Below are positions 2,026 to 58,613 of a stretch of DNA of 64,000 nt, piece by piece (position 1 is the first letter of the stretch; the number at the start of each line of letters is the position of its first letter). The notes beneath the pieces are model-generated. The model was not told the DNA's origin. It ran no database searches and saw only the letters and a list, made by a program, of their open reading frames with translations. Origin of the DNA: Aquirufa aurantiipilula (lineage in GTDB: Bacteria > Bacteroidota > Bacteroidia > Cytophagales > Spirosomataceae); contig NZ_JAANOG010000004.1 in NCBI RefSeq assembly GCF_019923745.1, positions 186,001 through 250,000 on the forward strand. The letters are read 5' to 3'. Position numbers and translations under genes: made by a program.

Positions 2026-4479
2026 TTATCTCAATTTACGTTTTGCCCAACGCTGTTCTAACATTTTGATGAAGTAGCCGCCCACCACACTTCTAGCTTG
2101 GAAACCTACTTGTTTGCCATTAGTCGTTTCATGCCAATCGCTCAAAGGCACGCGTGATGAACTTTCTTGCATGAATTGATAGATAGGATGTACCAAAGCC
2201 TTGAATTCTTCGGGTTTGTCAGAAAGAGTGGCAGTCCACATGATCCAATCACTTTTGGTATAGGTTTTTCTACTGTCCAAAGGCAAACCGTAGGTGTTTT
2301 GCTTTTTCAAATAGTAAGCCATTTCTTTTTCGTACACATATCTCGGGAATAGATTGAGTCCTAATAATTTGTCCCAAACAAGGTTATACTTTTGACTCCA
2401 GGTATTGTTTTTGTTGAAAGTCAAGGCATAATGATCTCCTTCATCGGCCATTTCCATCCATTTTAAGGCATATTTTTTAGCAATACTTTGCATGGAGTCA
2501 GCAGTGCTTTTCAAACCCATTTGTCGGGCCATTTGAGCGTAAGATCCAATACCTACAATCGCTTTGATGGATAGATTTGCATTGCGGTCCAAATGTCCTG
2601 CAAAATCATCCGTACATAATTGATTGGCAGGATCTAAACCGTCCTTGACTAAAAAGTCCACCCAGCGGGTTAGGGTAGGCCAATGTGCTTTGGCGATTTG
2701 TGTGCTGTTTTCTTCCTTGCAAATAGCCGCAGTTAACAGAATCATATTTCCTGCTTCTTCCACCGGCATATCTTCCGGATAGGTTTGTCCATTCGCCAAA
2801 GGATAGGTACCAATGTCATGTGCCGGGAAAGGTTTTTTCCATTGGCCACTTTCGCTGTAATAAATCAAAGGCTCAACCATTCCACGCAGTAATTTAGTAT
2901 TGTATATAAGACTCAAAGGGGCAGAAGGATAAGTGACATCCACCGTCCAAATTGAACCATTACTGAAGTTTTCTTTTTGAGGGAAAAGCACCTCATTTTT
3001 TTCTCCTCGAACTAATTTATGTGCCGCTAGTGATTGTCGGTAGGCAGCAACACAAAGTTCCACATATTCTTTTCCTCCGGCTTGAAGCGCTTCTTGATAT
3101 AACTGTTTGTCGAAGTTTTTACATTGACTCAGAATACTCGGATATTCTTGCGCAGCTCTTAGAAGCAAATCATCCATGCTGGCAAAGTTCTTTTTCCACC
3201 AAGCTTGTAAATTTTTCTGGAAATACTGAATGGAATACAAATCATCATAAGCCAGCATGATGCTCGAATTTTGATTGGATTTAGTGGCGTTTACATCCCA
3301 TGAGGCAACCAAATAATCCGTACTTCCTGATTCGCCGGAAGGTTTTTTGCCATCGGCAAGGCTCATCAATTGAGATTGAGAAAGCGTCTTTAATTGCTGC
3401 TTAGCTTGATTAGTCGCTAAATAGGCATATCCCCAGTCGATTCGAACATCGTCGCCCACTTTATTGAGTACTTTTTGTTGACTGAGCCCCGTTTTCAAAT
3501 AGCGAACATTGCCTTTTTTGCCCGTACTTACTTGGACCATTTGTTCTTTTTCATTTTTAGCTATATCCGAAGACAGGCCAAAAGTGATTTTGGTTTTATG
3601 CGTTTTATTATCTGTGGATTGTATGCCAAAATTGATGTAAGAAACAGGTCTTGAAAGTAAATCAAGGTTGGATGCTAAGAGCGGAGAAAGGAAATTCACT
3701 TGTAATTTAACGGGTCCACAAGTGAACTGGTAGCTTGTCTGCGTAGCGGTGATTTGGACGGAGTTTTGTGTCGCTAGGTTCGACTGAGTGGAGCGAGTTT
3801 GTTTAGCAAAACCGGCATCTAGCCAAGAATTTCCTACGGGATTCATGCAATGAATAGCCAAGATGTTTTTGCCTTTTTTTAGCTTGCTTTTAATGATATC
3901 ACTAAGTGGATAGTCTTTCAATTGCTTGGTATGGCAGTTTTCGCACGAATAAACAGGGTATCCGTTTAGGTAAACTTCCACGTCATCATCATGGCGCAGT
4001 TGAAGGATTAGTTGATCAATGTCGATGTCTTGTAAATCAAAGGCACGTCTTACCCAAATGTTTTTGGTGTTCCAAGGCGTATTCCATTTGTTATCCCAAC
4101 CTTTACCAAAAGGTAGTTTGCCTTTATTCCAATAGGTATCATTGAAGTGGGAAGTCATCCAATCCTCGGCAGGTTTGGTTTCCGTGTATTGCACCTCGAT
4201 TGGCTGATTATTTTCGGCATGGGCAACAATGCCTGTGGAGGGATATTGCAAGGCACCCAGGAATTGATAGGTTTTTCCGTCCACTTCCAATAGGCCCACT
4301 AAAGATTGATCCGAACCTGTCCAATGCCGCGTGACAGACTGATTCAATTGATCTGTAAAAGACCAAACACTGAAATAGGGGTCATGGGTGATGAGCGGAT
4401 AGGCAGGAGCTTTATTGACTTGTGCTTGGGCAAAAAAGCCAAACAACGCTAAACTAGCGAACAGGAAAAATGATTTCAT
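2026..4479 (-). CDS. Glutaminase-family protein (DUF4965/DUF5127/DUF1793 type)
   Basis: An 817-residue exported protein. The first 19 residues form a signal peptide ending in AQAQ. Residues about 100-225 resemble a galactose-binding jelly-roll, and the rest matches my recollection of the Bacteroidota glutaminase A-like proteins with DUF5127, DUF4965 and a C-terminal alpha/alpha barrel (DUF1793); the conserved-looking blocks PSAPLSLIYNTKLLRGM, DGLDPANQLCTDDFAGH and WHETTNGKQVGFQARSVVGG lie in that part. Family members are annotated as glutaminases by similarity, but the barrel is glycosidase-like, so a carbohydrate activity is possible. It is followed closely by the zinc dehydrogenase. Confidence 0.8.
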   Translation of the reverse strand: MKSFFLFASLALFGFFAQAQVNKAPAYPLITHDPYFSVWSFTDQLNQSVTRHWTGSDQSLVGLLEVDGKTYQFLGALQYPSTGIVAHAENNQPIEVQYTETKPAEDWMTSHFNDTYWNKGKLPFGKGWDNKWNTPWNTKNIWVRRAFDLQDIDIDQLILQLRHDDDVEVYLNGYPVYSCENCHTKQLKDYPLSDIIKSKLKKGKNILAIHCMNPVGNSWLDAGFAKQTRSTQSNLATQNSVQITATQTSYQFTCGPVKLQVNFLSPLLASNLDLLSRPVSYINFGIQSTDNKTHKTKITFGLSSDIAKNEKEQMVQVSTGKKGNVRYLKTGLSQQKVLNKVGDDVRIDWGYAYLATNQAKQQLKTLSQSQLMSLADGKKPSGESGSTDYLVASWDVNATKSNQNSSIMLAYDDLYSIQYFQKNLQAWWKKNFASMDDLLLRAAQEYPSILSQCKNFDKQLYQEALQAGGKEYVELCVAAYRQSLAAHKLVRGEKNEVLFPQKENFSNGSIWTVDVTYPSAPLSLIYNTKLLRGMVEPLIYYSESGQWKKPFPAHDIGTYPLANGQTYPEDMPVEEAGNMILLTAAICKEENSTQIAKAHWPTLTRWVDFLVKDGLDPANQLCTDDFAGHLDRNANLSIKAIVGIGSYAQMARQMGLKSTADSMQSIAKKYALKWMEMADEGDHYALTFNKNNTWSQKYNLVWDKLLGLNLFPRYVYEKEMAYYLKKQNTYGLPLDSRKTYTKSDWIMWTATLSDKPEEFKALVHPIYQFMQESSSRVPLSDWHETTNGKQVGFQARSVVGGYFIKMLEQRWAKRKLR

Positions 4480-36273: not shown

Positions 36274-36551
36274 GTGAATTGATTTTCTGAAAATTACCCA
36301 TTTAAAGATGAAAAATTAGCCAATTTTGACAGCTATTTGATTTTTAAAGGATGATTTTGATTAGCTTTTGACTAGTGATCAACAAAACAATAGTGCGAAT
36401 TGCTATTGCCATGTGATTGGAAGAAAGGGAAATTAGATTGTTTGAAGCCTTAATTAACCCCGAATGAAATTTAGAACACGGAGTAAGAATAAGAACAATC
36501 TATAAGCAATTATTATGAACTCAAAGCTAAGGAAAATAAGGAAATTTTCCC

Positions 36552-49276: not shown

Positions 49277-50476
49277 TCAATCCGTTAAAATTTGTGCCAA
49301 ATACTCTTTTGGTAGTAAACCTGTTCTTTTTTTGACGGCTGCAACGAATGAGGTTCGGGAGGAGAAACCTAAAGAATTTCCGATATATTCAATGGAATAT
49401 TTATCAAAATTCGGGTCTTTGTTTTTTAAAATATCGAGGTAATTGATACGCGCATCATTTACAAATTCATTGAAATTTTTGCCAAATTCTTGATTTAATA
49501 CTGGTGAAATCAAATAGCTAGGTATTTTAGTTTCTTTAGACAAATCAGCTATGGTATATCCAACTTGTAAATAAGCATGTGTGTTTTCAAAATGCTCCAG
49601 AATGGTTAGAAGGATATTTCTCCCTTGGTGAATTCCAATGAAATTTTGCTCTACTTCATTTTCTTCAACCGACTTGGCCTCTTGGATTGAACGTAGCGGT
49701 TCCTGCACTTGAATCCAACCGATCATCCCATACAATATTTTGGGTTGGGTGAATAAATAAAAACTGATTAGTAGGATTTCAGATAGAATACATAGTAAAA
49801 TCAGATTTCCTACAAATGCACCAGATTGTAATAAAAGTAGGGTATTGATGAAGGCTACTATACTTCCAAAGAACAAAAACGAGATGAGAATCCACAAAAA
49901 CCGATAGATATGAATATTCCGCAAGATTTGAACTTGAGGATTTAAAATCTTTTTTCTCCAGGAAAGGAGTAATTGGATGGAAGCTATTATGTATCCAAGT
50001 AAAGTGCCTAATCGAAATACAGCAGCCAAACCAGGAGGGAATAAACCTTCTGGCTCTTTCAGGTATATTTTTACATTGGATAAATTGTATTTAACGATTT
50101 GATATTGTTCTTCAGGAGAGAGAAGAAAAAATGGAATACGATTAATCATGTAAATCAACATAGGTAGAAACAAAAGATAGTCTTTCCAAGCCAGTTTATA
50201 AGATTGTTTCAGTACTGATTTTACATATAAAAAGGCAAATGGTCCTATACAAAATGGCGCCCAAGAATATATCTTAAAAAATGAAGGGTATTTTAAATAT
50301 AAATTAGTGGCAGGAAGACTATTGCCAAAGGTAGTGATCACAAAACTTAAGATTAATCCTGCTAAAATTTTGGAACTCATGGAGGGGACAGTCTGCCCAA
50401 AAAGCAATATCATACTGACAATCAAACCGATTGTTGAGATGGTTAAACTAATTACTAAAAGAGTAATATCTGTCAC
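49277..50476 (-). CDS. Membrane-anchored AraC family regulator, paralog 1
   Basis: 399 residues starting at a GTG. The first about 235 residues form seven or so membrane segments (ISLTISTIGLIVSMILLFG, then WAPFCIGPFAFLYVKSVL), followed by a linker. A C-terminal AraC helix-turn-helix includes YTIADLSKETKIPSYLISP and GNSLGFSSRTSFVAAVKKRT. Such proteins bind DNA from the membrane and probably sense a signal through the membrane part. It is clearly paralogous to the next gene in sequence and layout. The ligand and target genes are unknown; the nearest candidates are the matching non-coding units upstream of each paralog. Confidence 0.88.
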   Translation of the reverse strand: MTDITLLVISLTISTIGLIVSMILLFGQTVPSMSSKILAGLILSFVITTFGNSLPATNLYLKYPSFFKIYSWAPFCIGPFAFLYVKSVLKQSYKLAWKDYLLFLPMLIYMINRIPFFLLSPEEQYQIVKYNLSNVKIYLKEPEGLFPPGLAAVFRLGTLLGYIIASIQLLLSWRKKILNPQVQILRNIHIYRFLWILISFLFFGSIVAFINTLLLLQSGAFVGNLILLCILSEILLISFYLFTQPKILYGMIGWIQVQEPLRSIQEAKSVEENEVEQNFIGIHQGRNILLTILEHFENTHAYLQVGYTIADLSKETKIPSYLISPVLNQEFGKNFNEFVNDARINYLDILKNKDPNFDKYSIEYIGNSLGFSSRTSFVAAVKKRTGLLPKEYLAQILTD

Positions 50477-50726: not shown

Positions 50727-50751
50727 TGTTCATATTAGACGATTATGAACA
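50727..50751. promoter_or_regulatory. Putative operator of non-coding unit 1
   Basis: A perfect inverted repeat TGTTCATA-N9-TATGAACA. The shorter form TGTTCA-N13-TGAAC is shared, with the same spacing, by unit 2 at 52445. It lies 251 bases from the start of AraC paralog 1. Confidence 0.6.
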
Positions 50752-50773
50752 TTGTAAATTCATTAGATACTTA

Positions 50774-50902
50774 GCTAATTGGTACATTTACTATGTTTTT
50801 TATGGGTTCAAAATCCTAAGAGAGTTTTGAATCGTATGATGAAAAATTTTAGTACACAGAGATTTAAAAAATCCTTTGACCCATAGTCAGAGGATTTTTT
50901 GT
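50774..50902 (+). ncRNA. Putative small RNA unit 1 (ends in terminator hairpin)
   Basis: A gene-free stretch on the plus strand. It contains a weak -7-like GCTAATT at 50774, an internal hairpin (TTCAAAA/TTTTGAA near 50810-50835) and a terminator at 50866-50900 with a 15-bp stem, 5-base loop and T run. The last about 50 bases (from AGTACACAG at 50851) closely match the end of unit 2. The hairpin could also terminate AraC paralog 2 on the minus strand. A 16-codon frame starting MMKNFSTQ overlaps the hairpin but is not kept in unit 2, so an RNA is more likely than a peptide. Confidence 0.5.
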
Positions 50903-50992
50903 TTTTGCACTCATCATAACAAGCTAAACTTGAACATATTTCCGAAGTCACTACTTCTTATCAATCGATAACGCATAGCACTATATGTATAT

Positions 50993-52222
50993 CTATAATT
51001 GAGTCAAATATTCTTTAGGTAACAAGCCTGTTCGTTTTTTTACTGCCGCGATGAACGATGTTCTGGAGGCAAAGCCTATGGCATTTCCAATGTGTTCCAA
51101 GGAGTAATTGTCGAAATAAGGGTCATTGTTTTTCAGTACTTTCAGGTATTTGAAACGGGCATCATTAACAAACTCATTGAAATTATGCCCAAACTCCTGG
51201 TTAATGACAGTAGATATTAAATAGGAGGGGATATTGATTTCTTTGGATAGGTCAGCGATGGTGTAACCCATTTGAGTAAATGGGGAATTGGTATTAAAAT
51301 GATCCAAAATAGTTAGCAGAATGTTTCTACCATGATGAACACTAATGTGGGATATGTCATCATCATTTTCTTGTACTTCTTCAGATTCTGACAATGATCT
51401 GATGGGTTCATTCATCTGAATCCAACCCGTCATGCCGTATAGGATTTTTGGTTGGGTCAATAAATAAAAACAGATTAAAAGTATTTCAATCCAAATGAAA
51501 AAAAGGATAATCCTGCTGACCGGTATATCAAATTTTAGTTGAATGAATACCCCCAATACAGACGCGATTGCGCCTAATAAAAGAAAGGAGGTGTTAATCC
51601 AATGAAAGCGATAAATGTCCTTATTGGCCTCTATTTGCACTTTTAGGTCAAAAATCTTTCTTTTCCAAATGATTAATTCAAAAATAGTTCCAAAGATAAA
51701 ACCGAGTAAAAGGATAAAACGAAAGATGGGAGCCCAACCAACAGGAAGTAATCCTTCGGGTTCTAAAATATATAAGGATACATCTCGGTTTGTGCTTTGA
51801 ATGAATCGGATTTTTTCTTGGTTGGAAAGCAAATAGAATGGTATTCTATTCAACATGTATAGTACCATGGGTAGGAATAAAAGCCAGTCTAATCGTGTTA
51901 ATCGAATGGATTGTCGGAGTACTGTTTTTACATATAAATAGGCAAATGGCCCAATGCAGAAAGGAGCCCAAGAATAAATCTTATAGGAATTTGGGAAATT
52001 CAAATACAGATTAGTTAATGGTAAAGCATTGCCAGTAGAAGTCAATGCAAGCGATAATAACAAACCGGCTAATAGCTTAGAGTTCAAAGAAGGGACCGTT
52101 TGTCCAAAGTATAAAATCAAACTAACAATAAGCCCTATTGTAGAAATGATTAATGTGGTTAGTAAAAATGTAAAATCACTCAATTTTATTCTATTTATAT
52201 GTACGTTACAATTCACCCTCAT
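50993..52222 (-). CDS. Membrane-anchored AraC family regulator, paralog 2
   Basis: 409 residues with the same layout as paralog 1: about seven membrane segments (LIISTIGLIVSLILYFG, WAPFCIGPFAYLYVKTVL) and a C-terminal AraC helix-turn-helix (GNAIGFASRTSFIAAVKKRT). The two are nearly identical through the DNA-recognition region, so they may bind similar sites. An ATG at 52222 is used; alignment with paralog 1 would instead favour a TTG at 52183 (SDFTFLL). It is followed after about 90 bases by the hairpin of unit 1. The tandem arrangement points to a local duplication. Confidence 0.87.
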   Translation of the reverse strand: MRVNCNVHINRIKLSDFTFLLTTLIISTIGLIVSLILYFGQTVPSLNSKLLAGLLLSLALTSTGNALPLTNLYLNFPNSYKIYSWAPFCIGPFAYLYVKTVLRQSIRLTRLDWLLFLPMVLYMLNRIPFYLLSNQEKIRFIQSTNRDVSLYILEPEGLLPVGWAPIFRFILLLGFIFGTIFELIIWKRKIFDLKVQIEANKDIYRFHWINTSFLLLGAIASVLGVFIQLKFDIPVSRIILFFIWIEILLICFYLLTQPKILYGMTGWIQMNEPIRSLSESEEVQENDDDISHISVHHGRNILLTILDHFNTNSPFTQMGYTIADLSKEINIPSYLISTVINQEFGHNFNEFVNDARFKYLKVLKNNDPYFDNYSLEHIGNAIGFASRTSFIAAVKKRTGLLPKEYLTQL

Positions 52223-52444
52223 CTAATGAAGAGGAGAAGCATAAAAAGTATCTATATAAGTAGAACCAGGTTATTAAAAGAATATGTTTATACGCTTTTT
52301 ATGATACCTGATATGGTATAAGCTGAATCAATTTATTAGGAATATATTCTTCACAAATGATTGAGATTGATGCAAAAATACAACTTGTTTGACTATTTCA
52401 ACACTGAAGTGCAAGTAAATTGAGAAAATCTATTGTCATGTGAT

Positions 52445-52469
52445 TGTTCAAAATCGGCCAAAATGAACG
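52445..52469. promoter_or_regulatory. Putative operator of non-coding unit 2
   Basis: TGTTCA-N13-TGAACG, the same half-sites and spacing as at 50727. It lies 223 bases from the start of AraC paralog 2 and 119 bases before the unit 2 hairpin (115 in unit 1). Confidence 0.58.
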
Positions 52470-52500
52470 ACAAGCATTTTTTGACATCAATATTGAAGGC

Positions 52501-52622
52501 TAATTTTGAACTCACTTTTTTAGGTCTCTAAATAGAGAGATAGTTTTTGAGATTTATTAAAGGAACAGAATAGAACACAGTGATTTGAAAATCCTTTGAC
52601 CACTCGTCAGAGGATTTTTTGT
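52501..52622 (+). ncRNA. Putative small RNA unit 2 (ends in terminator hairpin)
   Basis: On the plus strand a TAATTTTG (-7 type) at 52501-52508 has a TTTG 17 bases before it. Downstream come a small hairpin (TCTCTA/TAGAGA, about 52526-52540) and a terminator at 52588-52620 (stem GAAAATCCTTTGAC and partner, loop of 5, T run). The predicted transcript is about 105 bases. No minus-strand gene ends here, and the plus-strand gene starts only at 52821, so this hairpin has no protein-coding gene to terminate. That favours a small RNA or a leftover of a lost third paralog. The rest of the 598-base gap shows nothing clear. Confidence 0.52.
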
Positions 52623-56339: not shown

Positions 56340-57956
56340 ATGTGTTCTATTAAAAAAATAGGAATATATAGCTTATTCCTATCACCACTAATTGTGCTAA
56401 TTATTTTTTGGTACATTTTCAGTATCGATATTCCTTGGTATGATGATGTCATGGTCTTGGCATTTACTAGGAATTGGGCAATTAGAGGCTTTGATTTTTG
56501 GATAATCAAGCAGTTGTTTGCTCATTATAATGAGCATATTATAGTTATTACCAAATTGTTCTTTTGGCTAAATTTCAAATTGTCAGGTTACGTCAACCTG
56601 TCCTATTTGGTATTGCAAGGGATGATGCTTTATATAGCATTTATTTTACTTTTTATTAAATATACATCTAGTAGAGGTGTATATTTAAAACTTATGACTG
56701 TTTTTATGTTGGCAAATCTTACATATGATGAAGGATATTTGTGGGCAATGAGCAGTATTCAAAATTTTGCTTCCTTATTATTTACCTTTGTTGCCATTAT
56801 CTATATGGCTAAAAGTAAAATTAGTTATAGCTTTCTTTTTCTTTGTTTGGGATTATTATCCTCCGCGCAGACGCTAGTGTTTATTCCAGTATGGGTTTTA
56901 GGAGTTCAATATAGAGGAAAGATTACTTGGAAAATTGTAGGTCTAATACTTGCTGTGTTAACTTTTTATTTTTCAGGATATCAGAAAACAGGTATTCAGC
57001 CTGATATGAATTCTATTTTAGTTTCATTTGATAAAGAAAGAATTATTTCAATTCTTACTTTTTTTACACCACCTTTTGGGAGTATCGGAAAGACTTTTAC
57101 CCTCATATACTTTTGTTTTGAATGCCTGTTATTATTAATAGTGTATTACCGAATAATTATTGATTTCAAGAGCCAACAATTCACTGAACGAAAAATCATT
57201 ATTGCTTCGGTATTAATTTGGTCATCGTTGATTATGTTAGTGACTGTCATTGTCCGCGTTGAAATTGAATCAAGGTATCTGATTTACCCTATTTTAAAAA
57301 CAACTTGTATTTACTTGTATCTTAATGAAATGAGTCCCTCTGTTAAATTGAATAAAGTAATGTTCACTATGTCCATCTTTTTTTACCTAAGCTCTTTCTT
57401 TCCATCCATTGTAAAGGCAAAGAACACCCATTTAGCAATGGCAACCTTGAAATTTAACTTACTTAAAAACCAAGCGACATTTTATTATGGTACAGATGAT
57501 GTTGACTCAAGAAAAGTTAATCCATATGTTAGTGAATTGAAAGCAACAAAGCTAGTAGAAATACCGAATCGACTAAATGGTAGAATTTTTAGCCACTTAT
57601 TACTTTTCAATCAAATTTCAAATGAACAAATTAAGTCAGTTAAATTCACTAGAGAACTGAGTTCGTCTATAAGTCAAAGTTTAAGCAAGTCCAATTTAAT
57701 TGTGAAAAATTTTCAGGTAGATTCAATGAGTCCTTTTATTGTATATCAAAAAGAACTAAGGACAAAAAATTGGTTTGAAACCAATTTCATTCTATTGAAA
57801 TCTAGAAATAAGTCTTTGCTTTTTAATTTTAAACGCAATGTTCCATCTATTATTCAGTTTGCTCAGGACCCCCAATATATAAATCAACTTATAATTTATA
57901 AAAACATGGTACCATATGGCCAATATGATATGTATTTGCTCGGCAATTCAAATTAG
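56340..57956 (+). CDS. Multi-pass membrane protein, GT-C-like hypothetical
   Basis: 538 residues. About ten membrane segments fill the first 370 residues and a soluble part of about 170 residues follows. An Asp pair (D35, D36 in PWYDD) sits in the first outer loop, as in GT-C glycosyltransferases that use lipid-linked sugars. I do not recognise a family with certainty. It is AT-rich compared with genes to its left and lies just before the tRNA remnants, so it may be accessory DNA. A GT-C enzyme of surface glycan synthesis is the best guess. Confidence 0.55.
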   Translation: MCSIKKIGIYSLFLSPLIVLIIFWYIFSIDIPWYDDVMVLAFTRNWAIRGFDFWIIKQLFAHYNEHIIVITKLFFWLNFKLSGYVNLSYLVLQGMMLYIAFILLFIKYTSSRGVYLKLMTVFMLANLTYDEGYLWAMSSIQNFASLLFTFVAIIYMAKSKISYSFLFLCLGLLSSAQTLVFIPVWVLGVQYRGKITWKIVGLILAVLTFYFSGYQKTGIQPDMNSILVSFDKERIISILTFFTPPFGSIGKTFTLIYFCFECLLLLIVYYRIIIDFKSQQFTERKIIIASVLIWSSLIMLVTVIVRVEIESRYLIYPILKTTCIYLYLNEMSPSVKLNKVMFTMSIFFYLSSFFPSIVKAKNTHLAMATLKFNLLKNQATFYYGTDDVDSRKVNPYVSELKATKLVEIPNRLNGRIFSHLLLFNQISNEQIKSVKFTRELSSSISQSLSKSNLIVKNFQVDSMSPFIVYQKELRTKNWFETNFILLKSRNKSLLFNFKRNVPSIIQFAQDPQYINQLIIYKNMVPYGQYDMYLLGNSN

Positions 57957-58514: not shown

Positions 58515-58560
58515 TGACCCCGGAAGGAATCGAACCTTCATATTAGGTACCGGAAACCTA
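58515..58560 (-). pseudogene. 3' half of tRNA-Arg(CCG), probable attachment site of an island
   Basis: Read on the minus strand: anticodon stem TAGGT/ACCTA with 7-base loop TTCCGGT (anticodon CCG at 58553-58551), a 4-base variable loop, T-arm GAAGG-TTCGATT-CCTTC, acceptor strand CGGGGTC and discriminator A. The 5' half (acceptor GACCCCG and D-arm) is absent: the match ends exactly at the anticodon stem. CCA is not encoded. A 3' fragment with this cut point is the usual footprint of a tyrosine-integrase island in a tRNA gene. Confidence 0.78.
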
Positions 58561-58575
58561 CATTATCACAAAACA

Positions 58576-58613
58576 GGTCTTTATTTGGTTTAAAGACCAT
58601 ATTTAGGTCTTTT
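58576..58613 (+). other. Three-segment RNA with mutually exclusive hairpins
   Basis: GGTCTTTA (58576-58583), TAAAGACC (58591-58598) and GGTCTTTT (58606-58613) can pair 1-2 or 2-3. The 2-3 hairpin is terminator-like (T run to 58614). The layout is that of an attenuator, but no gene follows closely on the plus strand. Confidence 0.4.

Follow-up and report, generated by a model that had tools for sequence, protein, structure and literature searches.

We describe two non-coding units in a 64,000-nucleotide stretch of the Aquirufa aurantiipilula genome (RefSeq assembly GCF_019923745.1, contig NZ_JAANOG010000004.1, positions 186,001 to 250,000; hereafter the window, in whose coordinates features are given), each lying upstream of a gene for a membrane-embedded AraC-type regulator. 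Judged from sequence, both look like small-RNA (sRNA) genes of a new multi-copy Aquirufa family, and the short core conserved throughout this family appears built to pair with the starts of giant surface-protein mRNAs. Our preferred reading, to which we assign a probability of about 0.73, is that these are sibling base-pairing sRNAs, each under its own regulator, that converge on surface-protein translation.

The two units share a common organization, with an operator-like palindrome, a -7 box 32 nt further on, a diverged middle, the core UAG(A/U)ACACAG and a terminator. In unit 1 the palindrome TGTTCA-N13-TGAACA (50727-50751) is followed by a predicted -7 box, TACATTTA (50783-50790, +), and a predicted sRNA of ~105 nt (50797-50905, +; its start placed from the -7 box), in which the core variant UAGUACACAG (50850-50859, +), also present in the unit at G015:C32 (L012), precedes the terminator hairpin (50866-50900, +; fold z -6.2 versus shuffles). 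Unit 2 has the palindrome TGTTCA-N13-TGAACG (52445-52469), the -7 box TAATTTTG (52501-52508, +), a predicted sRNA of ~108 nt with a similarly estimated start (52515-52622, +), the core in its standard form UAGAACACAG (52571-52580, +), a putative seed, and the terminator hairpin (52588-52620, +; fold z -4.6). As whole molecules the predicted sRNAs fold with z -3.7 (unit 1) and -2.6 (unit 2) relative to shuffles, and their 3' ends align closely while the middles do not. The palindromes, hairpins, near-identical 3' block and TAATTTTG box reported in an earlier, sequence-only reading of this DNA are thus all present, and its proposal of two paralogous small RNAs beside membrane AraC genes is well supported at the sequence level. 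Neither unit has a gathering-score match in Rfam, and a tRNA search is likewise empty there; at E <= 1, over 12 loci, tRNA matches fall elsewhere and small nucleolar or small nuclear RNA-type matches score 23-30 bits (23-25 bits for those overlapping units), all far below their cut-offs.

The adjacent regulators, AraC1 (399 aa; open reading frame 49277-50476, -) and AraC2 (409 aa; open reading frame 50993-52222, -), are 60% identical, and both have a hydrophobic helical N-terminus and a C-terminal AraC-type helix-turn-helix (HTH). The HTH_18 domain is found at residues 315-394 of AraC1 (E 2.7e-7; 31.2 bits, slightly under the gathering score of 33.6) and at residues 325-407 of AraC2 (E 2.4e-8, over the gathering score). 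The seven transmembrane helices proposed earlier are plausible and not settled, as the hydropathy profiles have 8 and 10 peaks that overlap in part and the AlphaFold prediction is of low quality (mean pLDDT score 54). Homologs of AraC2 (E <= 1e-30) occupy 14 places in six of the 38 genus genomes, including a third copy in this genome; a protein scan of named genomes for wider spread returned no relative. One place (L008) is cut by a contig end and another (L013) shares its intergenic region with a divergent neighbour (L009); the remaining 12 each have a divergent operator-like site, a variable middle, the core TAG(A/T)ACACA and a terminator. Relatives that retain the regulator also tend to retain the unit, with core and terminator kept in 12 of the 13 readable upstream regions.

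In this genome the operator is confined to the AraC paralogs. The exact sequence TGTTCA-N13-TGAAC occurs three times in the whole 3.08 Mb genome, each time upstream of one of the three AraC paralogs, and it is exact in nine of the 12 AraC-group units. Elsewhere in the genus, its exact occurrences fall at AraC-group units at one of one place in G012, two of three in G015 and three of four in G022; G024 has one place and G031 none, and the two genomes without this AraC group have no occurrence (G003) and two unrelated ones (G004). The -7 box begins 32 nt after the operator in eight of the 12 units and 31 nt after it in one, such that a palindrome at a fixed distance from the -7 box, a trait of AraC-controlled divergent promoters, is present in nine of the 12 at 31-32 nt.

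The family extends beyond the AraC-linked units. A covariance model built from those 12 (R1) finds further copies, also in genomes without this AraC group, and the loci fetched around them have the same core in front of a terminator of other sequence. What distant copies have in common is the core TAG(A/T)ACAC(A/G), in most cases with a G after it, and a terminator stem whose changes compensate one another; the 50-base block described previously is near-identical between units 1 and 2, but in distant copies only the core and the covarying stem persist. In a 29-copy alignment the core columns are invariant except for the fourth base (T in two of 29) and the ninth and tenth, and 10 of the 11 stem pairs have changes on both sides, with a covariation score of 0.736 versus 0.268 when shuffled and at most 0.239 when slid. 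Two traits of sibling sRNAs are therefore present, namely several loci per genome with a near-invariant short sequence, and an intrinsic terminator with conserved pairing.

A second model (R2) matches all 38 genus genomes at E <= 0.05, and in 29 of them, 11 of which supplied sequences to the model, the best match is at E <= 1e-5; the other nine match weakly. This genome has 14 matches, with 11 strong distinct copies among the matches listed, five close relatives have 9-17 each and other Aquirufa genomes 1-11. Units 1 and 2, both themselves in the model, are matched at 50838-50900 (62.0 bits, E 1.8e-13) and 52559-52620 (67.7 bits, E 6.6e-15). Across the order, 68 of 390 genomes match at E <= 0.001, six of them Aquirufa, and among six out-of-genus loci (L210-L215) one has the core, in the 2.7 Mb genome G174 of the same family, where a second match also carries it; the other five are plain terminators. 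The core is also absent at the match in six out-of-genus loci from the family-level R1 search (L038, L042-L046). A third core-like element in the window, TAGAACACGGAGTAA at 36472 (+), lies between divergent genes, with a strong hairpin ~70 nt on that lacks a U-tract and an R2 score of only 16.5 bits; it is possibly a degenerate or differently terminated copy.

The copies are found beside a variety of regulators. Of the strong copies in this genome, the two in the window (contig C41) and one on C50 are divergent from the AraC paralogs, one on C44 (172766) is divergent from another membrane AraC, the C51 copy is upstream of two tandem membrane AraC-type genes and the C2 copy lies behind a membrane AraC gene. 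A second C44 copy (189280) is divergent from a 560-aa protein for which Pfam gives a weak Rrf2 match alone, and which by eye looks like a sensor with a transmembrane helix and a C-terminal AraC-like HTH. Two C11 copies flank a TetR-like gene (TetR_N just under the cut-off), the C24 copy adjoins a kelch-transmembrane protein, the C3 copy lies between giant adhesin genes, and a weaker match on C60 has two tandem cores and is divergent from yet another membrane AraC. The units are more than the simple duplicated signalling unit suggested earlier, as they belong to a family of 11 strong copies beside several kinds of regulator. By local profiles, the nearest neighbour is AraC-, TetR- or CRP-like for 53 of 84 copies versus eight of 170 control genes; the controls come from loci around complement sites and not from random places, and orthologous copies are counted repeatedly, so that the 53 are not independent events. 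The core-match filter demanded a hairpin and a position outside long frames, some R2 matches gave no entry, and six of 90 core matches were left out (four reverse complements of target sites and two judged weak).

Several of these loci have further features of note. At L055 (relatives L058, L062, L066 and L069) two sRNA copies, at 3204-3265 and 4129-4190, flank one TetR-like gene, and in both copies TGTATAATTTTGAT(A/T)CA, which by eye looks like a TetR operator, overlaps a -7-like box. Copies behind PorP/SprF-type genes of adhesin operons are seen at L241, L242, L170, L171 and L234, and also in G174, four being directly behind by profile and the others by eye; this is possibly the ancestral place of the RNA family. 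At L167 (1-16348, G000:C3) two adjacent giant repeat-rich open frames of 2133 and 3314 codons directly precede an sRNA copy and an MCSKK gene.

The placement of sequences complementary to the core points to a common set of mRNA targets, which the sequence-only reading had not noticed. The complement TGTGTTCTA occurs 24 times in this genome, seven times as sRNA genes and 17 times elsewhere. Six of these 17 sites are in initiation regions, defined as -60 to +30 (p 3e-5), and at three the complement, as ATGTGTTCTA, coincides exactly with a start codon (p 6e-8; both values assume 2700 genes): those of two giant secreted proteins on C3, and that of a 538-aa membrane protein, MCSIKK... (56340-57956), whose predicted target site is at 56340-56349 (+). 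This window gene product shows distant similarity (23% identity, E 2e-14) to a membrane protein at L054 (1242-2948) encoded convergently with the C2 copy. Classification of 118 sites in five genomes gave 23 in sRNA genes, which were set aside, and 95 others: nine on start codons, 18 elsewhere in initiation regions, nine sense coding, 46 antisense coding and 13 intergenic. The 27 initiation-region sites compare with about four expected (from ~3.9% of both strands lying in initiation windows, with 2700 genes assumed), far above chance, and there the complement is on the sense strand 27 times and on the antisense strand three times (p 8e-6), although pooled p-values overstate the significance, since targets were classified in five related species only.

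The same genes recur among these species. Giant proteins have the complement at the start codon in all five, with one more in G003 shifted by one codon, and the CHU_C type IX sorting domain is found in the two of this genome. A second family of large proteins has the complement at -20/-21 in all five species. In four of the five, a subtilase (Peptidase_S8 in this genome) has it at -47/-48. A 421-aa protein with the complement at +27 in all five is less telling, as the site is within coding sequence. In nine adhesin leaders the sole long stretch common to all is TGTGTTCTAA. Several target genes also have a recurrent AACCACTAA-like element ahead of them, and the anti-core RNA described below contains a comparable stretch.

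Predicted duplexes agree with this picture in most of the regions tested, as the best of the 11 sRNAs beats all 40 shuffles in seven of nine. The window site at 56340 forms its best duplex (-21.6 kcal/mol) with copy C11b, and none of 40 shuffles is as good. Regulator mRNAs may also be partners. GUUCUA is on the mRNA strand in six of the 12 AraC leaders, and the AraC2 leader has a predicted pairing site (52256-52275, -) for the sRNA at G000:C44:189280-189341, with a nearly uninterrupted duplex of -27.1 kcal/mol that none of 40 shuffles equals. The sequence-only reading had left it between sRNAs regulated by AraC proteins and sRNAs regulating them; the operator geometry suggests the former, and the latter is suggested for AraC2 but not seen for AraC1.

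One further site suggests a possible sponge for the family. This intergenic site, CTGTGTTCTAAA, is shared by the five species and falls in an apparently non-coding region (the G012 copy has no ATG). The structured anti-core RNA predicted there, at L082 (~1474-1690; G000:C34 near 311468) and at L298, L309, L318 and L322, between a CRP-like gene (in this genome) and the ribosomal protein L19 gene, has a perfect 12-nt anti-core, CUGUGUUCUAAA, in five Aquirufa species. From the alignment, a closing stem of 13 bp is predicted, in which changes are compensatory, together with one internal and one 3' hairpin; six of 31 pairs have double changes versus 2.7 in shuffles, further pair types are in no excess, as 401 of 500 shuffles reach the same level, and two of the five sequences folded singly give z -3.9 and -7.5. 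Rfam assigns it no family, two chance-level matches both lying off the RNA. With only these five sequences behind it, it is a candidate sponge.

A number of observations weigh against sibling base-pairing sRNAs under separate regulators, in addition to the relatedness of the five species. At the promoters, the operator is degenerate in three of 12 units (L005, L007, L011) and a regular expression for the -7 box finds nothing in three (L005, L011, L012), and by the profiles used 31 of the 84 copies lack a regulator next to them (four being beside PorP/SprF and 27 beside neither). Accessibility of the core is moderate (0.29-0.91). The complement is no commoner in this genome than its reversed control (24 versus 22), only its placement being unusual, and in most genus genomes ATGTGTTCTA occurs less often than its reversed control; no start-codon ATGTGTTCTA site is found in G011 (0 of 3, one of them 5' of an AraC gene) or G022 (0 of 4 read, of 6), such that start-placed sense-strand complements at unlinked mRNAs are present across the five species but not seen at start codons among the sites read in these two genomes. 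One adhesin duplex (C3:34630) is marginal, with three of 40 shuffles as good, and for the AraC1 leader no pairing is seen with the 11 sRNAs (25 of 40 shuffles as good). The window sRNAs are themselves not the best partners, with energies of -8 to -17 (unit 2) and -9 to -18 kcal/mol (unit 1) that are near the shuffled best-of-eleven means. The perfect complement UAGUACACA of the unit 1 core is in a convincing sense initiation region at none of seven non-self sites here and none of three in G015, two of its sites being close to the ATG of a short reading frame that overlaps a long one running the other way; without a convincing target, this core may tolerate a mismatch, pair elsewhere or have other partners.

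Two other explanations deserve weighing, and we regard both as unlikely. The first is that TAGAACACA/TGTGTTCTA is a DNA element, an AraC half-site related to TGTTCA, with the hairpins as mere insulators of neighbouring genes. GAACA/TGTTC is indeed common to the core and the operator arms, and many copies adjoin AraC-type genes; however, the same core is found in TetR- and CRP-linked copies, it stands in one orientation shortly before the stem throughout the 29-copy alignment (partly by construction, as the copies were found by the model), and neither the sense-strand bias of the complements at target genes nor the phasing of nine sites exactly on AUG is expected of such an element. The second, about equally improbable, treats the units as terminators or attenuators of untranslated regions without function in trans, the core being a terminator or processing signal such as an RNA-binding-protein or RNase site. 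This would suit the copies that stand 3'-terminally in operons for PorP/SprF or adhesins (L241, L242, L170, L134, L167), but unit 2 and other AraC-group units are divergent, with their own operator and -7 box and nothing upstream to terminate, and the complement at start codons is left unexplained.

We give very little weight to the core as a CsrB-like protein-binding decoy, with mRNA sites incidental or bound by the same protein: many copies with one near-invariant short sequence are in its favour, but the mRNAs carry the complement of the core on their sense strand and not the core itself, which fits pairing over a shared protein site. Equally remote is the idea of short leader or signal peptides that the units would encode and the membrane AraC proteins would sense. 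The arrangement divergent from a membrane regulator and a 16-codon frame seen by eye in unit 1 speak for it, but conservation is in the core and stem pairs and not in codons. A peptide gene common to the two units was rejected, no shared reading frame being apparent by eye.

In the sibling-sRNA reading that we prefer, each unit would be an sRNA gene transcribed away from the gene of a membrane-embedded AraC protein. The operator, its spacing and the box are seen in the sequence; the AraC protein probably binds the palindrome, which lies at about -70 to -46 relative to the predicted sRNA start, and would switch the sRNA on. The predicted transcript would comprise a variable 5' part, the conserved core UAGAACACAG and the intrinsic terminator. 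The core would act as a seed for pairing with UGUGUUCUA where this covers or closely precedes the start codons of giant type IX-secreted proteins, of the subtilase and of a few further exported or membrane proteins. The placement, conservation and strand bias of these sites are observed, and pairing would block translation. With a family of siblings (11 strong copies here), many of them beside their own AraC, TetR-like or CRP-like regulator, many inputs would converge on one set of surface-protein targets. The pairing sites in some AraC leaders and the structured anti-core RNA probably close feedback or buffering loops.

A more elaborate version is a multi-input RNA switch at the level of the genus, with a private sRNA copy for each of many membrane or soluble sensors, a common seed over the start codons of giant gliding or adhesion proteins, pairing with sensor leaders and a threshold set by a dedicated structured sponge RNA with its perfect 12-nt anti-seed. 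With some copies placed 3'-terminally in adhesin and PorP/SprF operons, adhesin operons would in such a switch feed back on one another. We offer this version tentatively, at well under even odds.

Several elements of this arrangement have counterparts in well-studied systems. In OxyR-OxyS, GcvA-GcvB and SgrR-SgrS the sRNA gene adjoins, and is often divergent from, the gene of its controlling transcription factor, but these are single enterobacterial pairs with soluble regulators and not a one-seed sibling family with many regulators. The Qrr1-5 sRNAs of Vibrio are siblings with a common seed that serve as an integration node, with one response regulator, LuxO, driving all of them. What is distinct here is the spread of one seed over many regulator-linked loci. 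A literature search, from whose coverage most subscription journals fall outside, found no paper on an Aquirufa sRNA, on the core sequence or on Cytophagales/Spirosomaceae sRNAs.

The closest described system is that of the paralogous FopS sRNAs of Bacteroides thetaiotaomicron (PMC11697453). They are likewise Bacteroidota sibling sRNAs with a seed, a terminator and start-codon targets, and they bind surface-protein mRNAs (susC) close to their start codons and repress translation. They differ in being reported as driven by canonical sigma-ABfr promoters, possibly with an unknown regulator, whereas 53 of the 84 copies here adjoin a regulator gene, and in the position of the seed, which is a 5' stretch in FopS and just before the terminator here (PMC11697453). 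The multicopy LhrC siblings of Listeria repress translation of lapB, a cell-wall-associated adhesin mRNA, but their five copies are all under one two-component system (LisRK), use CU-rich pairing sites and belong to the Firmicutes (PMC4132741). Rfp18 of Flavobacterium psychrophilum is a Bacteroidota sRNA whose predicted partners are metalloprotease mRNAs and the mRNA of one secreted adhesin; it differs in being reported as a structured, conserved RNA that pairs through its third stem-loop and, as far as seen, not as one of a sibling family (PMC9723704).

Rfam gives a single match within the window, to a tRNA (58515-58579, -; 30.4 bits against a cut-off of 29, E 0.025), and ARAGORN reports no tRNA anywhere in this stretch.

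Members of Aquirufa are red bacteria of fresh water that move by gliding (PMC10821818). In our view, the choice that freshwater Bacteroidota make between free life and attachment is poorly understood. The family described here offers concrete, testable wiring in the form of sRNA genes, operators, a seed, start-codon targets and a candidate sponge. A separate regulator for each sibling sRNA, and not one for all, would be an unusual network design, and the AraC proteins embedded in the membrane would acquire a defined site on DNA and an output.

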